Shown: positions 20,175-32,708 of the stretch, in pieces
Layout of the letters: every line of letters begins with the position of its first letter
How positions within the stretch are numbered: the stretch's first letter is position 1
NCBI GenBank assembly: GCA_022071945.1
Contig: JAJVIN010000006.1
Location: 62,001-126,000, forward strand
Length of the DNA stretch: 64,000 nucleotides
Reading direction: 5' to 3'
Origin: Thermoanaerobaculia bacterium
GTDB lineage: Bacteria > Acidobacteriota > Thermoanaerobaculia > UBA5066
Translations under genes and position numbers: made by a program
The notes under the pieces: generated by a model
What the model saw: only the letters and a program-made list of their open reading frames with translations
The model's database searches: none
Told to the model about the DNA's origin: nothing

Positions 20175-20919
20175 CTATCCGGAGGCGGCAAGGCCCTCCA
20201 GGAACTTCTTCTCCAGGACGGCGCACAGGGGGCGGGGAACCGGGCCGCCGGCGGCCAGACAGATCGTCAGGCACGTCTCATCCGGCAGGCGGACCTCGAA
20301 CCCCGTGATCACGACCTCGTCGAAGGCGATGATCACGTTCGGGGGAACCGGCCCGGCGGGACGGCCCCTTTCTCCAGCCAGCAGCGGCCACCCTGCTGCC
20401 GATGAGGGCGTAGAACGCCTCCTCGCCCAAAAGCTCGCCCTTCTCCGCGTGAACGACATGTCCCCAATTAGACCAGACGGCGCCCGTCTCGCCTCCCCGG
20501 TCGATCCGAAGCGCCCCCCAGGAAGCAGAGAGCGCATAGATCTGGACGAGATCGGGGAACATGGGAAGCGAGATTGAGCCGGAGAAACCCGTCCGGGCCG
20601 CCAGAATCCTGTCGACCACCTCGAGGAGAGCCGAGAACGAGAACGGCCTTTCGAGGTACTCGACTGAGCCACGCTTCATGACTTCGTGCCTCACCTCGGA
20701 GGTCCCGAAGGCGGCGATGATGATGACCGGGAGCGTGGGAACGCCCCGTCTCGCCGCGATCAGGAGCTCGATCCCGCGTGTGGGTCCAGCTGGCTTTCCG
20801 GGGCAGCGAACGGAAGGGCTGGTTCGGCGGAAAACACCCAGCGCGGAGCGAGCGCTTTCAACGCGAATCTTCAGTCCTCCAGCCAGTGAAGCTTCGCATT
20901 CCTTCTTGGCCGAACCCAT
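20175..20919 (-). pseudogene. Chimeric remnant of receiver/DUF4388 regulator and Roadblock-like gene
   Basis: An ATG at 20919 with a good GGGAGG site opens a frame whose first ~48 residues have no match here. From about 20782 it becomes nearly identical to the middle of the regulator at 25957-26973 (GIELLIAARR, SEVRHEVMKRGSVEYLE, ALRIDRGGETGA). The first half of the receiver, including the phosphoacceptor Asp segment, is missing. A one-base deletion near 20390, relative to the intact copy, shifts the frame. At 20347 the sequence switches to the last ~56 codons of the Roadblock-like gene 23715-24326. It is therefore a recombinant, probably non-functional copy of two genes from the neighbouring signalling cluster. 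Confidence 0.8.
20176..20347. repeat. 172-bp direct repeat, left copy
   Basis: This copy is identical to 23716-23887 except for five substitutions and no gaps; the spacing between copies is exactly 3540 bp. It corresponds to the 3' end of the Roadblock-like gene. Together the two copies bracket the glycosyltransferase islet. Confidence 0.95.
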
Positions 20920-23714: not shown

Positions 23715-24326
23715 TTATCCGGAGGCGGCAAGGCCCTCCAGGAACCTCTTCTCCAGGACGGCGCACAGGGGGCGGGGAACCGGGCTGCCGGCGGCCAGGC
23801 AGATCGTCAGGCACGTCTCATCCGGCAGACGGACCTCGAACCCCGTGATCACGACCTCATCGAAGGCGATGATCACGTTCGGGGGAATTCCGCCTGGCTG
23901 CGCCATGGGACGCGCGTAGTCCAGCGACGCCATCAAGCGGGCGCCGATCGCCTCGACATCCGGCAGGGGAATCTCCCCGACCGACGCGATGAGGAGGCCG
24001 TGAGGATCCATCAGGATCGCCGCCGAGGCCCCCGAGGCCTGTCGTGCCCAGCTCAGAAGCGGCTCCCACCGGCGCCCGCCCTCGCCGAGCCTTTCCGGAA
24101 GCGGTGGCAGGGCGGCAGGGACCGAGGGAGCTTGCGCCGGGGCAACGGGGGCGGGAAGAGGCCCTGCAGAAGCGGAGACCGGCGGAGCGGGAGAGGCCGG
24201 CTGTCCGCGAAACGAGACGAATGCCGGACGGCGAACGGGAGCCGCCGGAGAGGCGCCCGTCAACCGGTGGGAGAGCTCCCTGGCTCTCTCCAGACTAGAG
24301 GAGCTGCCGCTCGGGTCGCTCTTCAA
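23715..24326 (-). CDS. Roadblock/LC7-like protein with Pro/Ala-rich N-terminus
   Basis: The 203-residue product starts at a TTG (24326) preceded by AGGAGG at good spacing and overlaps the end of parA by 32 bp. About 85 residues of Pro/Ala-rich, probably disordered sequence lead into a compact domain beginning WEPLLSWARQASGASAAIL and HGLLIASVGE, which resembles Roadblock/LC7 folds (MglB-like). The C-terminal part (VIIAFDEVVITGFEVRLPD, ending FLEGLAASG) is duplicated at 20176-20347. It is the last gene of a five-gene minus-strand cluster of receiver regulator, Roadblock proteins and ParA. A regulatory partner role for a small GTPase or for ParA is inference. Confidence 0.65.
   Translation of the reverse strand: MKSDPSGSSSSLERARELSHRLTGASPAAPVRRPAFVSFRGQPASPAPPVSASAGPLPAPVAPAQAPSVPAALPPLPERLGEGGRRWEPLLSWARQASGASAAILMDPHGLLIASVGEIPLPDVEAIGARLMASLDYARPMAQPGGIPPNVIIAFDEVVITGFEVRLPDETCLTICLAAGSPVPRPLCAVLEKRFLEGLAASG
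23716..23887. repeat. 172-bp direct repeat, right copy (within intact gene)
   Basis: This copy matches 20176-20347 with five mismatches. It is the genuine 3' end of the Roadblock-like gene 23715-24326, so it is likely the parental one. Confidence 0.95.
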
Positions 24327-25107
24327 CCTTCGCCTCCTGGGGCAAGAGCCGCTGCATCTGAAGCTCGAGCTCGGCGGCCAGAAGCTCGAACCTGCGGGAT
24401 TCGGGCGTGACCGCCCCCGAGAGGAAGCTCACCGGAAGTCCCTTCCGGCTCGCCTCCGCGTAGATATCGGCGCGCGGAATCGCGGATTCGAGGACTCCCC
24501 CGAACCCCCAGATTTCGCCCAGGACCGAGAGGGCGGCCGGCTTGGACTTCTCCACCATCGCAGGCAGGATGCCGAGCAACTGCAGGCGGGGGTTCTCGTT
24601 CGTCTTCACGTGCTCGATGACACGCAGGATCTGCGAGACCGAGCGCAGGGAGAGGCTCTCGGTCTGGAAGGGAACGAGAACGAAGTCGGAAACCGCCAGG
24701 GCCGCCCGCGTGACGAGGCCGACGCCGGAGGGCGTGTCGAGGAGGACGAGGTCGTGGTCCGTCTCCAGGCGGTCGAGGGTCCCGGAAAGGACGCCGGGAC
24801 CGAAGAGAGCCTGCTCGTAGTCACAGACCTCGGCGGGATCGAGCCTCCCGCGCGGGAGAAGCGAAAGGCCCGGAAGGCGCGTCTTGAGGATCGCCTCCTC
24901 GGGAGTCACGGTGCCCGTCATCAGGTCGGCAAGCCCGGCGAGCTCATCGTCTTCCCGGGCCAGTGAGAGGCCGATTCCTCCCTGTGGGTCGAGATCGGCG
25001 AGAAGGACACGCCGTCCTCGTTCCGCCAGCGCCACCGCCAGGTTGAGCGCGACAGTGGTCTTGCCAGTTCCGCCCTTCTGGCTCGCAATCGTCAAACGTC
25101 GTGGCAT
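24295..25107 (-). CDS. ParA/MinD-family ATPase
   Basis: The 270-residue product has the deviant Walker A SQKGGTGKTTVALNLA at the N-terminus, DLDPQGG (A') and a Walker B-like DLVLLDTPSGVG. A GAGGAGG Shine-Dalgarno precedes the ATG. Family members dimerise with ATP on membranes or DNA and position plasmids, chromosomes or protein complexes. There is no ParB or parS-like sequence nearby. The gene is embedded between two Roadblock-like genes, so a role in positioning a signalling or motility complex is more likely than DNA partition; that is inference. Confidence 0.88.
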   Translation of the reverse strand: MPRRLTIASQKGGTGKTTVALNLAVALAERGRRVLLADLDPQGGIGLSLAREDDELAGLADLMTGTVTPEEAILKTRLPGLSLLPRGRLDPAEVCDYEQALFGPGVLSGTLDRLETDHDLVLLDTPSGVGLVTRAALAVSDFVLVPFQTESLSLRSVSQILRVIEHVKTNENPRLQLLGILPAMVEKSKPAALSVLGEIWGFGGVLESAIPRADIYAEASRKGLPVSFLSGAVTPESRRFELLAAELELQMQRLLPQEAKVEERPERQLL

Positions 25108-25148
25108 CTTCTGCCTCCTCTGCTCCGGAAACAGGTTCTCTACGAGGC

Positions 25149-25517
25149 TCAGACGAGGCGGGCGATTTCCTGAGCGGCCCTCTTCATGTCGAGGAGGACC
25201 ATCCCGAGCTTCGCCTGCGACCCCGCGATGGTCTCGAGAACGGCCTCGGGTCCGGCCTGCATCAGGATGATGTAGCCGGAGCTCCCCCTCACGTAGACCT
25301 GCTCGAGCGTCCCGCGCTGCAGCTCGGCGGAGGTGCGCTCTCCGAGGGACAAGAGGGCCGCGGCCATCGCGGACACCCGGTCCTCGTCCGTCCCCTGGGG
25401 CAGGACCGAGGCCAGGATGAGGCCGTCGACGCTCACGACGGCAGCCCCCTCGACCTCGGGAGTGTTGGAGCGGAAGTTCCTGAGAACCTGCTGCATCTGT
25501 TCAGCCCGGCTTGCCAT
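25149..25517 (-). CDS. Roadblock/LC7 domain protein, MglB-like
   Basis: The 122-residue product runs from the ATG at 25517, which has GGAGG just upstream; a longer frame to 25592 lacks support. The whole protein is one Roadblock/LC7 domain: FRSNTPEVEGAAVVSVDGL, then ILASVLPQGTDEDRVSAMAAAL, LSLGERTSAEL and YVRGSSGYIIL. This is the typical form of MglB-type GTPase activators. No MglA-like Ras GTPase gene lies in the window. It sits between another Roadblock-like gene and parA on the same strand. Confidence 0.88.
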   Translation of the reverse strand: MASRAEQMQQVLRNFRSNTPEVEGAAVVSVDGLILASVLPQGTDEDRVSAMAAALLSLGERTSAELQRGTLEQVYVRGSSGYIILMQAGPEAVLETIAGSQAKLGMVLLDMKRAAQEIARLV

Positions 25518-25537
25518 TGTCAAACCTCCATCAATCT

Positions 25538-25960
25538 CTAGACGGTGGATTCCAGCCGCCGCTGCGCGGAGCGAATTTCCTTCCAGCCCCATCCCGGAGC
25601 GACGCTGGCCTCCGTCACCAGCAAGAAGAGCCGCCGGCCATCGCCGGAGACCTTCGCATACAGACCGCGGGATGCCGTCACGAGCCGAAGCTCCTGGAAG
25701 GGCTCCGACCCCGGAATCCCACCCTGATCCAGGAGCGCCGCGCGCACCCTGGCCACATCCGGGTTCCTGAGAAGGGCGAGGACTCCCTTGACGGTCTGAC
25801 TCATTTCCGAAGGGGCGATCTTCTCCCCGTGAAAACCGAGGATTCCTCCGGACTCCGTCTCGGCCACGGCAAAAGCGAGGGCGCCTTCTCCCGAGATCGC
25901 GATGTCCTTGCAGATCGCGTCCAGCTCCGCCCGTCTCGTCGACCCGCTCTCCCCGCTCAC
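25538..25960 (-). CDS. Small Roadblock-like signalling protein
   Basis: The 140-residue product starts at a GTG whose GTGA overlaps the stop of the upstream response regulator, indicating translational coupling. Its pattern (AICKDIAISGEGALAFAVAE, GGILGFHGEKIA, LRLVTASRGLYAKVSG, LFLLVTEASV) has the alternating helix-strand profile of Roadblock/longin domains but is divergent. The close coupling with the receiver/DUF4388 protein suggests they act together. Confidence 0.6.
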   Translation of the reverse strand: MSGESGSTRRAELDAICKDIAISGEGALAFAVAETESGGILGFHGEKIAPSEMSQTVKGVLALLRNPDVARVRAALLDQGGIPGSEPFQELRLVTASRGLYAKVSGDGRRLFLLVTEASVAPGWGWKEIRSAQRRLESTV

Positions 25961-26973
25961 GGCCAGAGACTCCTGACCCCGCTCTCGATCGCGCTGCGGA
26001 ATCTCGTCAGGGACGGACGCGATGAAATGTCATCCGAGGCCACGACCGCCCCGCTCTTCTCATCCCAGATCACGGCCATTCCGTTCACGGTCCCGGAGAG
26101 CTCGAGGACCGCGCGGCCCGTGACGGCCGGTATCTCGCGGGCTTGTGCCGTCACGGCCTTGACGGCCTCCGAGAGGGGGCTCGACCCATCGAGAGGAACG
26201 TCCAGCACCTGGGCTCCGTTCAGGGACTCGCGGAGGAGTCGCGAAATCACCGCCCAGTCTTGAATGGCGGGCTCTGCCGCGGGGACGTCCTTCGCCGCCG
26301 CCTCGTCCAGGCGCCGGCAGCCTTCGATCAAGAGGGTCTGCCAGGCGTCGGTGATGGTCCGGCCCGGCGGGACGGCCCCTTTCTCCAGCCAGAAGCGCCC
26401 GCCTTGCCAGCCGATGAGGGAGTAGAACGCCTCCTCGCCCAGAAGCTCGCCCTTCTCCGCGTGAACGACCTGTCCCCGATCGAACCAGATGGCACCCGTC
26501 TCGCCTCCCCGGTCGATCCGGAGCGCCCCAGAGGAAGCGGAAAGCGCATAGATCTGGACGAGATCGGGCAGCATGGGAAGCGAGATCGAGCCCGAGAAGC
26601 CCGTCCGGGCCGCGAGAATCCTGTCGACCACCTCGAGGAGGGCCGAGAACGAGAAGGGCTTCTCGAGGTACTCGACCGACCCGCGCTTCATGACCTCGTG
26701 CCTCACCTCGGAGGTGCCGAACGCCGTGATGATGATGACCGGGAGCGTGGGAACGACTCTTCGCGCCGCGATCAGGAGCTCGATCCCGTTCATCGCCGGC
26801 ATCTGGACATCCGAGATCAGGACATCGGGCGGAGCCTGCTTGATCCTCTCCAGCGCCTCGATCGGATCCAGGAATCCCTCGAAGGAGATCTCCGGCCGGG
26901 TTCTCGCCATCTGTTTCGAGGTGATCCAGACCAGATCCTCCTCGTCATCGACCATCACGACTCGGGCTGGCAT
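25957..26973 (-). CDS. Response regulator with receiver and DUF4388 (PATAN) domains
   Basis: The 338-residue product starts with a receiver domain (about 1-120) with acidic pocket DDEED, phosphoacceptor Asp55 in LISDVQMP, the T in ITAFG and K in LEKPFS. A DUF4388/PATAN domain follows (about 128-225, SGSISLPMLPDLVQIYALS, GALRIDRGGETGAIWFDRG). The C-terminus (about 240-338) looks like another Roadblock-type domain. There is no DNA-binding domain, so the output is protein-protein. It is the first gene of the cluster and lies 96 bp downstream of the histidine kinase gene, its probable cognate sensor. A damaged recombinant copy is at 20175-20919. Confidence 0.88.
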   Translation of the reverse strand: MPARVVMVDDEEDLVWITSKQMARTRPEISFEGFLDPIEALERIKQAPPDVLISDVQMPAMNGIELLIAARRVVPTLPVIIITAFGTSEVRHEVMKRGSVEYLEKPFSFSALLEVVDRILAARTGFSGSISLPMLPDLVQIYALSASSGALRIDRGGETGAIWFDRGQVVHAEKGELLGEEAFYSLIGWQGGRFWLEKGAVPPGRTITDAWQTLLIEGCRRLDEAAAKDVPAAEPAIQDWAVISRLLRESLNGAQVLDVPLDGSSPLSEAVKAVTAQAREIPAVTGRAVLELSGTVNGMAVIWDEKSGAVVASDDISSRPSLTRFRSAIESGVRSLWP

Positions 26974-27069
26974 CAGCCGACAATTTTCACACAGTCAACA
27001 CCGTTGGTACATCGGCGAGTGGGAACATCTCGAAAAGCCCCCAGTGCCTGCCGCCATCTCGCGGCGGGA

Positions 27070-29112
27070 TCACTTCCCCTCCGCCCGGCTGGCGGGCAAG
27101 AGGAGTCGCACGCAGGTGCCCGGGGCCTCTCGAGACAAGAGATGCAGGTGTCCCCGGTTTTCCTGGACCAGCCGCTGAGCGATCGAGAGACCGAGTCCGG
27201 TACCTCTCGCCTTCGTCGTGAAGAACGGATCGAAGACGTTGCGTGCAATGTCGGGGCGGATCCCGGGGCCGTCGTCGAGGAAGTCGATCTGTACGAAAGG
27301 GCCCGCCGGCCCGGCGGCTTCCGGAAACCCGGCGCGGACTTCGACTCCCGAAGGAGCCTTCGCCGCATCCAGCGCGTTTTCCAACAGAGCCACGAAGACC
27401 TCCACGATCTGATCGGGATCGGCGAGGATATCCGGCAGCCCCGCACCGAGGGTGACGACGGGCCGGCCCGCGCCTCCGAGCCGAGGTTCCAGGATCTCGA
27501 GCGCGTCCTCGATGAGGTCGCCGGGGCGGCATTCGAGGATCACCGGCAGCTTCGGGCGGGCGAAACGGAGCGAGTTCTTCACGATCTTCTCGATTCGTGA
27601 AAGAAGGGAAAGAACTCTCGTTGCGTACTCCCGCTTCTCGTCCTGCGCCGAGAGATCGACGAGGAGAAGCTCGATGAGAGATCGCATGGCGGCCAGCGGA
27701 TTGCGGATCTCGTGGGCGATGGCGGTGGCCATCTGCCCGAGAGCGGAAAGACCCTCGACTCTTCTCATCTCGATCTCGAACTGCCGCTGGACCCCCAGAT
27801 CCCGGAAGACGAAGACGTAACGGGTCCGAGGCGAGACCTCGAGGGGGCCGAGAGCGCCATCCAGGACTCGAAACTCCCCGGATATTCCCCCCAGGCGCGG
27901 CGCGCCCCCCACCACCGTCACGCTCAGCCCTATCTCCAGCCTGCGGCCCGACGGCGTCACGTACGGGAACTCCACGCGACGCTCCCCCTCCCGGGCATCC
28001 GCCATGGCCTTCTCGATCGCCCCGTCTCCGAAGATCCTCCGGACGGGAACCCCGAGACAGTCTTCGCTCTCGAGCTCGAGAAGGGCGAGGGCGGAACGGT
28101 TCGCGAGGACGACCACCCCCTCCGCGTCCGCGGCGATGACGCCCGCGGAAAGTGAGTCGAGGACGGTCTCGATGAACTGCCTTCTCGTGTCGAGACGATG
28201 TTGCGCCTCCGCGACCTCCCGCGTCCTCTTCGCAAGGAGGGCCTCGAGCTCGGCTTCCCTCGGGCTCGCCGCCGTCCCGGCACCCTGACGCGGAACCTCC
28301 GCGAGAGTTCCAATCCAGTGCGTAAGACCCCGGGACCTTGCCTTGACGGGCCAGAGGCTCAACCGGTACGGCGAGTTGTGCGCCTCGTGCGGCAGCCAGA
28401 TGGTCGCCGCGCACTCCTCTCCTTTCCACAGACTGGCCCGGACGGCATCCGCGGCCGAAACCTCGGTACGCGAACCGATCAGGAGCTCGCCTCCGAGTCC
28501 CAGGCTCGCGCCTTCTCCCGATCCCATCAGGGCTGATCCCATCAGGGCCCGAAACGCGGCGTTGGCCATCACGACGGGAAAACCGGCAACGGCCGCGTCC
28601 GCAACGAAGGTTGGAAGAGAACTGACATTTGCGGCAGCCGCGAGCAGGCGGCACCGGCTCCTCTCCTCGGCACGACGGCACAGACCCGCGATCCGCCGCC
28701 GGACCAGGGCCTCTGGCTCCGTGGCCAGGACGATGTCGTCCGGCACGAGCGCCAGGAGCGCGGGAATCGAGGACTCGCCAGATGCCTCGACCACGACGAG
28801 CGGCCCTTCTGTCCGGGCGAAGGCAGTCTCGGCACGAAGGGCCGCCGCCTGGGCAGCCGCTTCCATTCCTTCGGCGCGGGCGACGAGAACGAGATCCGAG
28901 CCCTCCCCCGACAGCAACGGCAAAACAGAGCGAGGATCCGCGTTCTCGTGGACCACGACGCCCTGCGGGAGCAGGGAGCCGAGATAGCGCCTGTCGTGAG
29001 GCGCGCGAGCAACGACCGTGGCCACGACGCGACACGGGGGCGAGTGCGCTCCGAGATCCGGTATTCGTGGATCTCCATGATCCTCACGCCTCGATGATTC
29101 GCACTCGCTCAT
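27070..29112 (-). CDS. Soluble PAS-containing sensor histidine kinase
   Basis: The 680-residue product has no signal peptide or membrane segment. The first ~150 residues resemble a degenerate receiver fold, followed by a PAS-like region (about 165-285), a coiled coil (about 290-320) and a second PAS domain (about 325-430). The dimerisation domain with phosphoacceptor His467 (IAHEIRNPLAAM) and a GHKL ATPase domain (LLENALDAA, DDGPGI, GTGLGLSIAQ) complete it. It should sense a cytoplasmic signal and phosphorylate the adjacent receiver/DUF4388 protein. It is divergent from the hydrogenase operon, so a redox or H2-related input is possible but unproven. Confidence 0.92.
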   Translation of the reverse strand: MSECESSRREDHGDPRIPDLGAHSPPCRVVATVVARAPHDRRYLGSLLPQGVVVHENADPRSVLPLLSGEGSDLVLVARAEGMEAAAQAAALRAETAFARTEGPLVVVEASGESSIPALLALVPDDIVLATEPEALVRRRIAGLCRRAEERSRCRLLAAAANVSSLPTFVADAAVAGFPVVMANAAFRALMGSALMGSGEGASLGLGGELLIGSRTEVSAADAVRASLWKGEECAATIWLPHEAHNSPYRLSLWPVKARSRGLTHWIGTLAEVPRQGAGTAASPREAELEALLAKRTREVAEAQHRLDTRRQFIETVLDSLSAGVIAADAEGVVVLANRSALALLELESEDCLGVPVRRIFGDGAIEKAMADAREGERRVEFPYVTPSGRRLEIGLSVTVVGGAPRLGGISGEFRVLDGALGPLEVSPRTRYVFVFRDLGVQRQFEIEMRRVEGLSALGQMATAIAHEIRNPLAAMRSLIELLLVDLSAQDEKREYATRVLSLLSRIEKIVKNSLRFARPKLPVILECRPGDLIEDALEILEPRLGGAGRPVVTLGAGLPDILADPDQIVEVFVALLENALDAAKAPSGVEVRAGFPEAAGPAGPFVQIDFLDDGPGIRPDIARNVFDPFFTTKARGTGLGLSIAQRLVQENRGHLHLLSREAPGTCVRLLLPASRAEGK
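28520..28549. repeat. 15-bp tandem duplication inside the histidine kinase gene
   Basis: GATCCCATCAGGGCT is repeated twice in tandem, the second copy ending in C. It adds one in-frame ALMGS unit to a loop of the first PAS-like region. Confidence 0.8.
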
Positions 29113-29345: not shown

Positions 29346-29876
29346 ATGCCCGAGCTTGAGCAAGCTGTTGCGGAATGGGGCATGCCAGCGGTGACGGTTG
29401 TGACCGCGGGGAATCCGTTTGTCAGCTTCGATCGTATCGGCCCGCTCGTCGCCGAGGAGCTCATGCGCCAGCTTCCCGAACAGACGGAGCTCGTGAACAT
29501 GGGGACGGACAGTCTGGCGCTGCTGGACCTGATGCGCGGGCAGGATCTGCTTCTCGTCGTCGACGCCTGCCTCGGGGGCACGGAACCGGGAACGATATCG
29601 ATCACGGAGCCCGTGTTCGCGAAGGGCCGTGTGAGCGGGACGACCCTCCACCATGTCGGACCGCAAGAGGTTCTGACGATGGCGTCGCTCCTCTACCCGG
29701 AGAAGGTCCCCAGACGCTGCAAGCTCATCCTGGTGGAAACCGGTGGTCTGTTGCCCGATGAGGTTCCGGCAGCGGCCGCGCGCGCCGCCGAGATCGTTCG
29801 GCGCGAAATCGACGAGTGTCTTTGCGCAAAGACCCGTCACAAGCCCCTGATCGAAGAGCTCGCGAGTGGGAGGTGA
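29346..29876 (+). CDS. Hydrogenase maturation protease (HyaD/HycI family)
   Basis: The 176-residue product runs from the ATG at 29346; the open frame extends upstream to 29250 but the shorter start gives the family's N-terminus. It contains TAGNPFVSFDRIGP (nickel-binding acidic residue region), a LVVDACLGG aspartate and the TLHHVGPQE histidine, the three ligands used by this endopeptidase family to sense nickel in the large subunit. Such proteases cut the large-subunit tail after the final His of DPCxxCxxH. The large subunit here has a 23-residue tail that fits. It is the first gene of the operon and its stop is just before the next ATG. Confidence 0.85.
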   Translation: MPELEQAVAEWGMPAVTVVTAGNPFVSFDRIGPLVAEELMRQLPEQTELVNMGTDSLALLDLMRGQDLLLVVDACLGGTEPGTISITEPVFAKGRVSGTTLHHVGPQEVLTMASLLYPEKVPRRCKLILVETGGLLPDEVPAAAARAAEIVRREIDECLCAKTRHKPLIEELASGR

Positions 29877-29878
29877 GC

Positions 29879-30367
29879 ATGCAGGACAGCGAAGGATGCC
29901 AGCGCGCCCAGGGAATGATGGTCTTCCTCGCTTCCGTTTCGAACGGACTCGAGGACGTTCTCGGCCGGGGTGCCGGCGGGATCACGTTCCGCGCCGGCAA
30001 AACGACGGGACTGAAGCAGAAGGTCGAGGCGACGGACACCGCCAACCTCGACCACGCGCTCGAGCTTGTCTGGAACGAGATGTGCCGGATCGGAATGCGC
30101 TGGGCTTTCGAGCCCTACAAGCTGACGGCCGAGCCGGCCCTCGTCGCCACCTCGGACGGACGGGTTCAGATGAAGCTCGTCTTCAGGAATTGCCTGGTGA
30201 GAAGCGCGCTCTTCCGTTACGGGCACCCGCAGAAGCTGTCGCTCTGCCTGATGAACCACGGCCTTTTCTGCGGGCTCTTGGAGAAGATCCACGGGGGCAA
30301 GGCGAACCTCGAGATCCTCCACGCCGGCGAGAACGCGTGTCTGAAGCTCCTGACCGTGGAGAAGTGA
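29879..30367 (+). CDS. V4R-like small cysteine-containing protein of the hydrogenase operon
   Basis: The 162-residue product starts at the ATG at 29879 with GGGAGG upstream; the frame is open to 29816 but the extra residues overlap the protease gene. Its C-terminal half (LCLMNHGLFCGLLEKIHG, then a GENACLKLL-type end) follows the V4R (4-vinyl reductase) pattern of Cys, glycine pair, then a late Cys before a terminal beta strand. V4R domains bind small hydrophobic ligands or metals in regulators and BchJ-like proteins. Its function in a hydrogenase operon is not known to me. It could be a ligand sensor or a maturation or assembly factor. Confidence 0.55.
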   Translation: MQDSEGCQRAQGMMVFLASVSNGLEDVLGRGAGGITFRAGKTTGLKQKVEATDTANLDHALELVWNEMCRIGMRWAFEPYKLTAEPALVATSDGRVQMKLVFRNCLVRSALFRYGHPQKLSLCLMNHGLFCGLLEKIHGGKANLEILHAGENACLKLLTVEK

Positions 30368-30378
30368 GGGAGGACCCG

Positions 30379-31308
30379 ATGACGGCCAAGAAGAAGGTCT
30401 CGATCGAATGGCTCTCGGGCTGCTCCGGCTGCGAGCTCGGGATCGTCGACCTGCACGAGAAGCTCCTCGCCGTTCTCGACGAGGTCGAGCTCGTGAGGGT
30501 TCCCATCCTGATGGACACGAAGGACTACGTGAAGGCCGATGTCGGCATCATCACCGGGTCGATCCGGACCGAGCACGACATCCACGCCGCGCAAGCCATG
30601 CGGAAGGCCTGCGATGCCATCGTCGCGTTCGGGACCTGTCCGGTCTACGGGGGCCCGCACAGCTCGGCGTACGCGCACACGAAAGAGGAGCTTTTAGACG
30701 GCGCCTTCCGCCGCAATCCGTCCACGAAAACGAGCGAGGCCCCGCAAGACGTCCCCAGGCTCCTCGACGGCAATCGGCCCCTCGACAGCGAGATTGCGGT
30801 CGACGTCTACATCCCGGGCTGCCCGCCCGGAGCGGCCTACATCTTCGACGGGCTCCTCTCGCTCCTGCGCGGAACGGATCCCCGCATCGGCCCGAGAAAC
30901 GTCTGCTTCAACTGCGACCGCAAGATGGTCAAGAGCCAGCAGCCGGCGCTGCGACGGTCTTTTGACGGCAGCTTCGACCCCGAAATCTGCTTCCTGTCTC
31001 AGGGGTGCATCTGCCTCGGGTCCGTGACGCTCGACCGTTGCCTGGCGCCGTGCATGAAGGCAGGGGTCCCGTGTTTTGCCTGCGGCGGCCCATCCGAGGC
31101 GATCTGTCTCGAGCCGCAGAAGGACGTCCGTTCCGAGGTTGCGCTCCGGATGGCCCAGTTGACGAAGATCCCGGCCGAGGCCGTCGTTAGGGAAATCGAA
31201 CAGCAGGCGAAGACCCACTTCGCCTACGCGATGGCCTCCCCCGTGTTCCGGCAGAAACCGACCTTCCTCTTGAAGAAATGGACCCGAACCGCCGAAGGAG
31301 GCCGCTGA
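30379..31308 (+). CDS. NiFe hydrogenase small subunit, group 3-like
   Basis: The 309-residue product starts at the ATG at 30379 after GGGAGGACCCG. Cys15 and Cys18 in LSGCSGCELG, FGTCPVYGG and GCPPGAAYIFDG supply ligands of the proximal iron-sulfur cluster. NVCFNCDRK and a Cys-rich C-terminal region (QGCICLGS, APCMKAG, CFACGG) supply further clusters. Lack of a Tat signal or membrane anchor indicates a cytoplasmic enzyme, like MvhG/FrhG or the small subunits of group 3 hydrogenases. It transfers electrons between the NiFe site and a partner, perhaps the ferredoxin encoded downstream. Its TGA overlaps the ATG of the large subunit gene (TGATG), so the two are translationally coupled. Confidence 0.92.
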   Translation: MTAKKKVSIEWLSGCSGCELGIVDLHEKLLAVLDEVELVRVPILMDTKDYVKADVGIITGSIRTEHDIHAAQAMRKACDAIVAFGTCPVYGGPHSSAYAHTKEELLDGAFRRNPSTKTSEAPQDVPRLLDGNRPLDSEIAVDVYIPGCPPGAAYIFDGLLSLLRGTDPRIGPRNVCFNCDRKMVKSQQPALRRSFDGSFDPEICFLSQGCICLGSVTLDRCLAPCMKAGVPCFACGGPSEAICLEPQKDVRSEVALRMAQLTKIPAEAVVREIEQQAKTHFAYAMASPVFRQKPTFLLKKWTRTAEGGR

Positions 31309-32708
31309 TGAAGAGAACGATCACGATCGACCCGGTCACCCGCATCGAGGGCCACGCGCGCGTGGAAGTCGATCTGGACGACGGCTCCCGCGTGACCCGC
31401 ACGCTCTTCAAGGTCATGGACTTTCGGGGCTTCGAAGTCTTCCTCAAGGGGATGCAGGTCGAGTCGATGCCCACGATCACGTCCCGTATCTGCGGCACGT
31501 GACCGCAGGCGCATCATCTGGCCTCGGCGAGGTCAGTCGACAAGGTCTTCGGAGCCGTCCCGACCAGGACGGCCACTCTCCTGCGCAACGCCCTGAACAT
31601 GGGCTCGATCCTCCACTCGCACGGAATCCACTTCTTCGTCCTGTCCGCGCCTGACTTCCTCCTCGGTCCCGAGACGGACCCTGCCGAGCGCAATGTCGTC
31701 GGTCTCCTCAAGCGGATGCCCGACGTCGCGAGGAAGGCCCTTTCGCTGCGGAGCGTCGGGCAGCGGGTGACCGAGGTCATCGGCGGCCGGGGCACCCACC
31801 CCGTTTCATGTGTCGCGGGGGGCCTCGCCGCCCCGCTCACTCCCGATCGTCTCGCCTCCCTGAAGAAACTCGCGGAGGAAGGCCGGGAGCTCTCAATCGA
31901 GCTCGTCGAGTTCTCTAGAAAGGCCCTGACCGAACGGCGGGAGCTGATGCAGCTTCTGCCCCTGCCGACCCATTACCTCGGAACCGTCAAGGACGGCGCG
32001 CTCGATCTCTACGACGGGCAGCTCAGGCTCCGTTCCCCGGAAGGGAAGGACCTGGAGTTCTCCGAAGATGATTGGATGTCCTACCTCTTCGAGGAGACGC
32101 TCCCGTCTTCGTATGCCAAGCCCGTCTTCTGCAAGACGGAAGCGGGGCCGCCGGTCCCGTTCAGAGTCGGGGCGCTGGCCCGCCTCAACTGCGCCGACCG
32201 GATCGACACTCCGCTGGCCCAGGCCGAGCTCGAGCGGTTCCGGGAGCTCTACGGGAAGATCTGCCACGAGACGGTTCTCTACCATTACGCACGCCTCATC
32301 GAGATCCTTCACGCGGCCGAGAAGCTCTCGGTCATCGCCTCGGATCCCGAGATCCTCTCGCCCGATGTCCGCTCGGTCCCGACACATGGCCCGAAAAGCG
32401 CAACGGCCCACGTCGAGGCGCCTCGCGGAGTTCTCATCCACGACTACCAGGTGAACGAGAAGGGCATCGTCGAGAGGGCGAATCTCATCGTGGCCACCCA
32501 GCAGAACATCCATGCCCTCAACGAGACGATTGGCCTGGCGGCCGAGAAGCTCGTCACGCAGTCGGACGAGGCGCTCCTGAACGGCATCGAGTTCGGGATC
32601 CGCTGCTACGACCCCTGCCTCTCCTGCGCCACGCACCGGGCCGGAGAGATGAAACTGGACGTGACGGTCCGCAGGGGCGGAGCCGTCATCCGGCGCGCGA
32701 GGAGGTGA
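31308..32708 (+). CDS. NiFe hydrogenase large subunit with in-frame TGA, predicted selenocysteine at L1
   Basis: Reading TGA at 31500-31502 as an amino acid gives 466 residues in one frame with no other stop. The N-terminal motif reads R60-I-C62-G-T-U65-P-Q-A-H69, so residue 65 takes the place of the second, bridging Cys of RxCGxCxxxH. The C-terminal motif DPCLSCATH (435-443) is canonical, with both Cys encoded by TGC, followed by a 23-residue tail for the maturation protease. VTRIEGHARVEVDL at the start is typical of the family. The coding pattern and family similarity continue unbroken on both sides of the TGA. A stem-loop resembling a bacterial SECIS begins 15 nt after it. The alternatives are a nonsense mutation or base error (TGC/TGT to TGA). 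Selenocysteine machinery genes are not in the window. Confidence 0.85.
31518..31536 (+). promoter_or_regulatory. Candidate bacterial SECIS hairpin
   Basis: Eight consecutive base pairs (31518-31525 with 31529-31536, one G-U) close a 3-nt loop GGC. The loop lies about 24 nt after the TGA, and its first two bases are G. This fits the published bacterial SECIS rules (apical loop of 3-14 nt with a G among the first two, 16-37 nt from UGA). In a GC-rich genome such a hairpin could also arise by chance. Confidence 0.55.

Follow-up and report, generated by a model that had tools for sequence, protein, structure and literature searches.

A two-component gene cluster with Roadblock proteins and an orphan ParA ATPase in a Thermoanaerobaculia bacterium: a putative cytosolic signalling hub

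The window analysed here is a stretch of 64,000 nucleotides (nt) from a Thermoanaerobaculia bacterium (contig JAJVIN010000006.1, positions 62,001 to 126,000). On its minus strand, from 29112 to 23715, six co-directional genes lie near end to end. In this order they encode a histidine kinase (g6), a receiver-PATAN protein (g5), a small protein (g4), a Roadblock protein (g3), an orphan ParA ATPase (g2) and a predicted ParA partner (g1). ParA and g1 recur together beside Roadblock genes of the g3 family in 12 of 32 loci, i.e., in 11 genomes from nine families. We propose, with about even confidence, that the cluster specifies a cytosolic signalling hub in which a Roadblock scaffold is coupled to the orphan ParA through g1.

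Conservation of the gene cluster

A single-protein search for the g3 Roadblock family in 100 relatives gave 20 genomes at E 0.001. A profile built from nine g3 sequences detected the family in 16 of 396 genomes of the phylum at 1e-15 and in 16 of 148 genomes of the class at 1e-20. The comparison set comprises 32 loci, the window and 31 others with their surrounding DNA. Of the 28 places found by the single-protein search the 12 best were counted (E below about 1e-14, window included) and the 16 weaker ones omitted. L075, an 821-amino-acid (aa) protein with a weak Roadblock domain, and L076, an mglBA pair, were left out as well. The former lies about 12 kb past the end of the window (G000:C10:138345-138653; L075:12333-14798). 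Families were mapped by six-frame hidden Markov model (HMM) searches, and "near" denotes the same strand within 5 kb.

Near the Roadblock gene the receiver-PATAN protein is present in 20 loci, the kinase in 15, the oxygen-binding diiron protein ODP in 13, and ParA and g1 in 12 each. ODP and ParA occur together in nine loci, a protoglobin in three and MglA in none. The loci which carry g1 are exactly those which carry ParA (12/12). They are spread over families f1 (two loci in one genome), f5 (three genomes), f13, f18, f24, f36, f39, f44 and f75. Five loci (L077, L081, L120, L126, L188) end about 0.4 to 2.3 kb from the Roadblock gene on one side; because the DNA stops so close, absences in these loci say little.

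The linkage of ParA to the Roadblock loci exceeds chance. With about six strong ParA-type matches in 6.17 Mb, ParA is expected within 5 kb of a locus with p of about 0.01; it was seen in 12/32 loci and, without the nine loci which seeded the profile, in 7/23 (ODP in 5/23). The loci are related by descent and are not independent trials in this estimate. The initial annotation had surmised that the Roadblock proteins may control ParA and had called for an analysis of gene order. The synteny over nine families supports the view that the two belong together.

The order of genes in individual loci is as follows:

L115 and L116: kinase, Roadblock, ODP, receiver-PATAN, ParA, g1, in strict order
L117: Roadblock, ODP, receiver, ParA, g1
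L118: Roadblock, ODP, ParA, g1, receiver
L119: Roadblock, ODP, receiver, ParA, g1, kinase
L078 to L080: protoglobin, receiver-PATAN, Roadblock, a second, divergent Roadblock-like protein, ODP, ParA, g1
L124 (without ODP, like the window): Roadblock, ParA, g1, kinase, receiver-PATAN-Roadblock fusion
L191 (without ODP, like the window): kinase, receiver, ParA, g1, Roadblock
L073 (genome of the window; gene content): ODP, kinase, receiver, ParA and g1, with small changes compared to L115 and L116
L074 (genome of the window; gene content): kinase, ODP and receiver, without ParA

Thus, the window's own genome harbors two more loci of the g3 Roadblock family, L073 and L074. In five of the 32 loci (L084, L085, L124, L126, L127) the receiver-PATAN protein is fused to a C-terminal Roadblock domain, and these fusions support a physical association of the two. 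Tandem Roadblock genes of the g3 family were observed in L185, L186, L187, L189 and L190; ODP, ParA and MglA were not found near them.

The proteins of the cluster

The genes of the cluster are separated by gaps of 96, -4, 20, 41 and -32 nt:

27070..29112, minus strand: g6, soluble histidine kinase of 680 aa with an unassigned N-terminus, PAS, HisKA and HATPase_c (Pfam)
25957..26973, minus strand: g5, receiver and DUF4388 (PATAN) protein of 338 aa; fold of the 113-residue tail unproven (Pfam)
25538..25960, minus strand: g4, 140-aa protein, Roadblock-like solely in its predicted order of helices and strands
25149..25592, minus strand: g3, Roadblock/LC7 protein, 147 aa as called (Pfam, alignment, PDB profile)
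24295..25107, minus strand: g2, orphan ParA ATPase of 270 aa with the C-terminus -ERQLL (Pfam AAA_31)
23715..24326, minus strand: g1, predicted ParA partner of 203 aa with an N-terminal helix motif, a Pro/Ala-rich linker and a C-terminal Roadblock-type domain (profile, synteny)
20176..20776, minus strand: degraded duplicate of the cluster with an internal deletion which fuses the end of g1 to part of g5 (blastn)

The duplicate is 97.1% identical over 172 nt to 23716-23887 in g1 and 90.2% over 430 nt to 26359-26788 in g5; both pieces abut at 20347/20348. The tight packing of kinase, receiver-DUF4388, Roadblock and ParA genes remarked on in the initial annotation is confirmed (-32 to 96 nt), and so is the lack of a Ras-like GTPase, as no MglA-like gene was found in the cluster.

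The motifs of kinase, receiver and ATPase are intact and visible in the translations: AHEIRNP in the kinase, ISDVQMP and EKPF in the receiver, KGGTGKTT in ParA. The kinase g6 matches HATPase_c (2.3e-18), HisKA (1.6e-12) and PAS_4 (1.1e-7), and PAS, HisKA and HATPase pass the Pfam cut-off. No 19-residue stretch exceeds a Kyte-Doolittle value of 1.62, thus an obvious transmembrane helix is absent and the kinase was rightly called soluble. It is encoded together with a receiver protein, the constellation of a two-component system.

In g5 the receiver (Response_reg, 2e-20) and DUF4388 (1.1e-19) are assigned by Pfam, and a match to a DNA-binding domain was not found there. The Roadblock tail which had been supposed for this protein was not confirmed: the tail has no Pfam match, and a single-sequence hhalign against the Roadblock alignment gave none either. 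Its AlphaFold model has a predicted local distance difference test score (pLDDT) of 54, the order of helices and strands is compatible with a Roadblock fold, and Foldseek gave no useful match; we did not count this as evidence. A contig scan with the receiver-PATAN protein yielded one good relative, at locus L037 in Geothrix (46% over residues 3-224), with no Roadblock, ODP or ParA matches nearby. The remaining matches were generic receivers.

The Roadblock identity of g3 is clear (Pfam Robl_LC7, E 4.6e-21, 74.8 bits against a cut-off of 23). Alignment to relatives places its probable start at 25517, giving 122 aa, rather than at 25592. In PDB, the g3 family profile matches 7f8m at 7e-36, CvnB5 (3leq) at 1e-18 and MglB at 0.008. 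From the three further Roadblock-like proteins originally listed, g3 by Pfam and g1 by family profile are retained. g4 is unproven: Pfam gave no match, and Foldseek and an hhalign of the single sequence against the Roadblock alignment were negative. The AlphaFold2 model (pLDDT 43) has the order H-E-E-H-E-E-E-H, which at such confidence was not counted as evidence. A six-frame HMM search of the other 31 loci found no relative of g4.

ParA and its candidate partner g1

g2 possesses the fold of ParA/MinD ATPases (AAA_31, 2.8e-33) and the deviant Walker A sequence KGGTGKT. All 12 ParAs of the module end in x-L-[LFV], preceded by a mostly polar or acidic stretch. This ending is found in none of the eight other readable ParA/MinD-superfamily open reading frames (ORFs) of the window's genome; of 13 matches two were unreadable, two are module members and two lie within one ORF. 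If the tail is a docking peptide, Roadblock dimers would be the natural guess for its target, and ParA might then contact Roadblock proteins directly.

The g1 frame overlaps the end of ParA by 32 nt, provided that the TTG start is right, and this suggests coupled translation. Alone, g1 misses the cut-off of the Roadblock Pfam model (0.039). Sub-threshold matches to Robl_LC7 or LAMTOR5 were obtained with the g1-type proteins of L073 (0.075 and 0.082), L116 (0.067), L118 (0.0065), L119 (0.027) and L191 (0.019), and none singly with those of L115, L117 and L079. These single-sequence scans covered the g1-type proteins other than those of L078, L080 and L124. A profile of 12 g1-type domains has as its best PDB matches MglB (6e-4) and LAMTOR5 (2.6e-3), both Roadblock folds. 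The alignment of g1 and g3 profiles by hhalign is weak (probability 3.6 with seven, 20.5 with 12 sequences), so the assignment is based on the PDB profile search. Thus, a Roadblock-type C-terminal domain in g1 is supported by the family profile.

At its N-terminus g1 has a short helical motif (SSLERARELSHRL in the window, SDLEKARQISHKL in L116, SDIELAGKLSQKL in L115), and the linker to the Roadblock-type domain is often rich in Pro and Ala. In partners of ParA a charged, disordered N-terminus binds the ATPase and the rest serves the cargo (PMC10241942). By this analogy g1 is predicted to be laid out like a ParA partner, i.e., a short helix, a linker and a Roadblock cargo domain.

Alternatively, this ParA may segregate or position an unrelated replicon or cargo, the linkage to Roadblock genes being mere hitch-hiking in an operon. 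The best NCBIfam match of g2 is indeed a partition ATPase model, below its cut-off (98 versus 180 bits). ParB, which adjoins ParA in ParABS systems, was not matched by g1 in Pfam scans, yet g1 accompanies ParA in every one of the 12 loci. Further, the linkage of ParA and Roadblock is kept over nine families, and the host contig, at 168.9 kb, is not obviously a small plasmid. We therefore regard hitch-hiking as very unlikely.

MglA as a possible target

Roadblock proteins are known as regulators of MglA, and the initial annotation had considered a distant GTPase as their target. The search for mglA which it suggested was carried out. The window's genome has a canonical recR-mglB-mglA operon on contig C16 and two further MglA-like matches. 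Hence, the proteins of the cluster could be extra MglB-like regulators of an MglA encoded elsewhere, with ParA as a bystander. Elsewhere, heteromeric complexes containing Roadblock proteins control small GTPases (PMC9481161).

Several observations speak against this. The MglA of this genome already has its own MglB. In none of the 32 loci is MglA encoded near the Roadblock gene. Canonical MglA (E 1e-80) is present in 118 of 148 genomes of the class, in 15/16 carriers of the module and in 103/132 non-carriers. Because this difference is not significant (Fisher p 0.19), MglA does not track the module; it is general in the class and does not specifically explain the module. An MglA match is wholly missing in three of 18 genomes with the g3 family, the loci of which also lack ParA and ODP. 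Lastly, the g3 profile is nearer to 7f8m and CvnB5 than to MglB. A distant GTPase is therefore available in the genome, but paired with its own mglB and not co-conserved with the module, and we consider such a role of the cluster quite unlikely.

Oxygen- and redox-linked partners

The ODPs of relatives belong to Pfam PF19583 (3.4e-59). A profile of 13 ODPs matches solved structures of oxygen-binding diiron proteins (6qrq, 2e-88; 6qnm, 5e-82), and in all 13 the HQDPD motif and other columns of His or Asp are invariant. Two of the proteins flanking L079 are protoglobins. Treponema denticola uses an ODP to sense oxygen in chemotaxis (PMC7666581). Together with the PAS kinases, ODP and protoglobins make it look as if the module in relatives is linked to the oxygen or redox state. 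In 3.7 kb of DNA with the Desulforhopalus ODP gene (L128) the module was not found. The polarity of a motility or secretion complex, initially offered as the output, finds no support; the partners in relatives indicate oxygen or redox sensing. A redox or oxygen input may, by analogy, also apply to the copy in the window.

Proposed mechanism

The soluble kinase would phosphorylate the receiver-PATAN protein as in ordinary two-component signalling. The latter and the Roadblock proteins would form a scaffold which, in most ParA-bearing relatives, ODP would join as a sensor. Because ODP is absent from the window, sensing would there have to fall to the PAS/N-terminal region of the kinase itself. 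The N-terminal helix of g1 is predicted to engage ParA as other ParA partners do, and its Roadblock domain to dock into the scaffold. As output, ParA would position the hub on the nucleoid, or ParA itself would be the switched component. In its furthest form, which we put forward only tentatively and at less than even confidence, ParA has become the NTPase with which a Roadblock system works, in place of the Ras-like GTPase, and g1 controls the ParA cycle, thereby placing a redox-sensing hub.

A number of findings weigh against the hub. ParA is not obligatory, since it is missing from 20/32 loci and, among the 13 loci with ODP, from four (L074, L077, L081, L082; the contigs of L077 and L081 measure 3.4 and 6.7 kb). 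ODP was not found in the window; 13/32 loci have it, two of them in the window's own genome. The order of kinase and receiver varies among loci, and g4 is left unexplained. The conserved ParA tail overlaps the start of g1, and the coding overlap could contribute to its conservation. In the N-terminal 30 residues of g1 the basic character is weak (net charge on average +1.2, positive in 8/12).

If correct, an orphan Roadblock family gains a specific, testable NTPase partner other than a Ras-like GTPase, and a redox- or oxygen-sensing two-component hub joins the cargos of ParA-type ATPases. The module further offers PATAN receiver proteins a concrete context. Among the matches listed in literature searches, no description was found of Roadblock and ParA combined with DUF4388, with a response regulator in Acidobacteria (orphan ParA) or, in an operon, with an oxygen-binding diiron protein.

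The neighbouring NiFe hydrogenase

Divergent from the kinase, a group 3 Vhu-like NiFe-hydrogenase operon extends from 29250 onward (VhuG-like 5.7e-54, VhuA 4.7e-101). Two of its genes are listed:

31278-32708, plus strand: hydrogenase large subunit with an in-frame TGA at 31500-31502
29866-30367, plus strand: 166-aa protein between the maturation protease and the small subunit; searches of Pfam and NCBIfam gave no match

The divergent arrangement (29112 versus 29250) next to such a hydrogenase, and the redox-linked ODP and protoglobin in relatives, would fit an ordinary two-component regulator of this operon, with Roadblock and ParA tuning expression and not localisation. Against this, the receiver protein has no match to a DNA-binding domain, and a hydrogenase gene was not noticed among the proteins of eight relative loci, the flanks of which were not systematically annotated. 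We consider this explanation unlikely. The hydrogenase neighbourhood looks particular to the window, and the hydrogenase genes, not seen in the relatives' loci looked at, were dropped as parts of the module.

In NiFe hydrogenases the L1 cysteines are nickel ligands, and UxxC is the L2 motif. In the window, the TGA sits exactly at the second Cys of L1 (RICGT-TGA-PQAHH). Among 396 genomes of the phylum 99 have a homologue, and five of these, not counting the window's genome, show a single TGA within the match. Its position coincides with the L1 codon in four (G330, G344, G192, G276; loci L167, L168, L169, L171) and does not in G035. Three of these four genomes are from a single genus, so that three lineages including that of the window share the TGA codon. 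The codon is TGC or TGT in 18 other distinct sequences inspected. The window's genome has a tRNA-Sec (64 bits, cut-off 47) and SelB over cut-off. SelB does not discriminate because it is over cut-off in all ten genomes tested, five with and five without TGA. Hairpins downstream of TGA have no distinct selenocysteine insertion sequence (SECIS) energy (mean -12.5, n 5, versus -13.8, n 18, in homologues with a Cys codon). A nonsense mutation is unlikely to have struck one and the same ligand codon in three lineages, and this L1 nickel ligand is a candidate for selenocysteine. Selenocysteine at this position was not found described among the matches listed in a literature search.

Comparison with known systems

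DUF742 is a component of the actinobacterial conservon operon. In the cluster neither a DUF742 nor a GTPase match was found with Pfam. Conservons consist of a histidine kinase, a Roadblock protein, a conserved protein and a GTPase (PMC4316618). The likeness to our cluster is the combination of kinase and Roadblock in one operon, and the g3 profile matches the conservon protein CvnB5. The cluster differs by ParA in place of the Ras-like GTPase and by the additional PATAN receiver protein.

With the MglA/MglB polarity systems and orphan MglBs the module has the Roadblock domain in common. It possesses ParA, g1 and ODP in place of MglA. As of 2014, 328 of 749 MglB homologues were orphans, none of them characterised (Wuichet and Soegaard-Andersen, PMC4316618). 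The same source reports PATAN proteins encoded near MglB/MglA genes and does not mention ParA.

With the Treponema denticola sensor the relatives share an ODP family protein (PF19583, 6qrq/6qnm). In the module ODP has Roadblock, PATAN receiver and ParA as its partners instead of a methyl-accepting chemotaxis protein, and the window copy is without ODP.

The ParA/MinD-family ATPases which position cargos include PpfA, ParC and McdA (PMC10241942) and PomZ (PMC7993993). As in these systems, an orphan ParA adjoins signalling cargo and a putative partner composed of an N-terminal peptide and a cargo domain. In the module, in contrast, this partner carries a Roadblock domain, and the cargo would be a two-component/ODP hub instead of a chemoreceptor.

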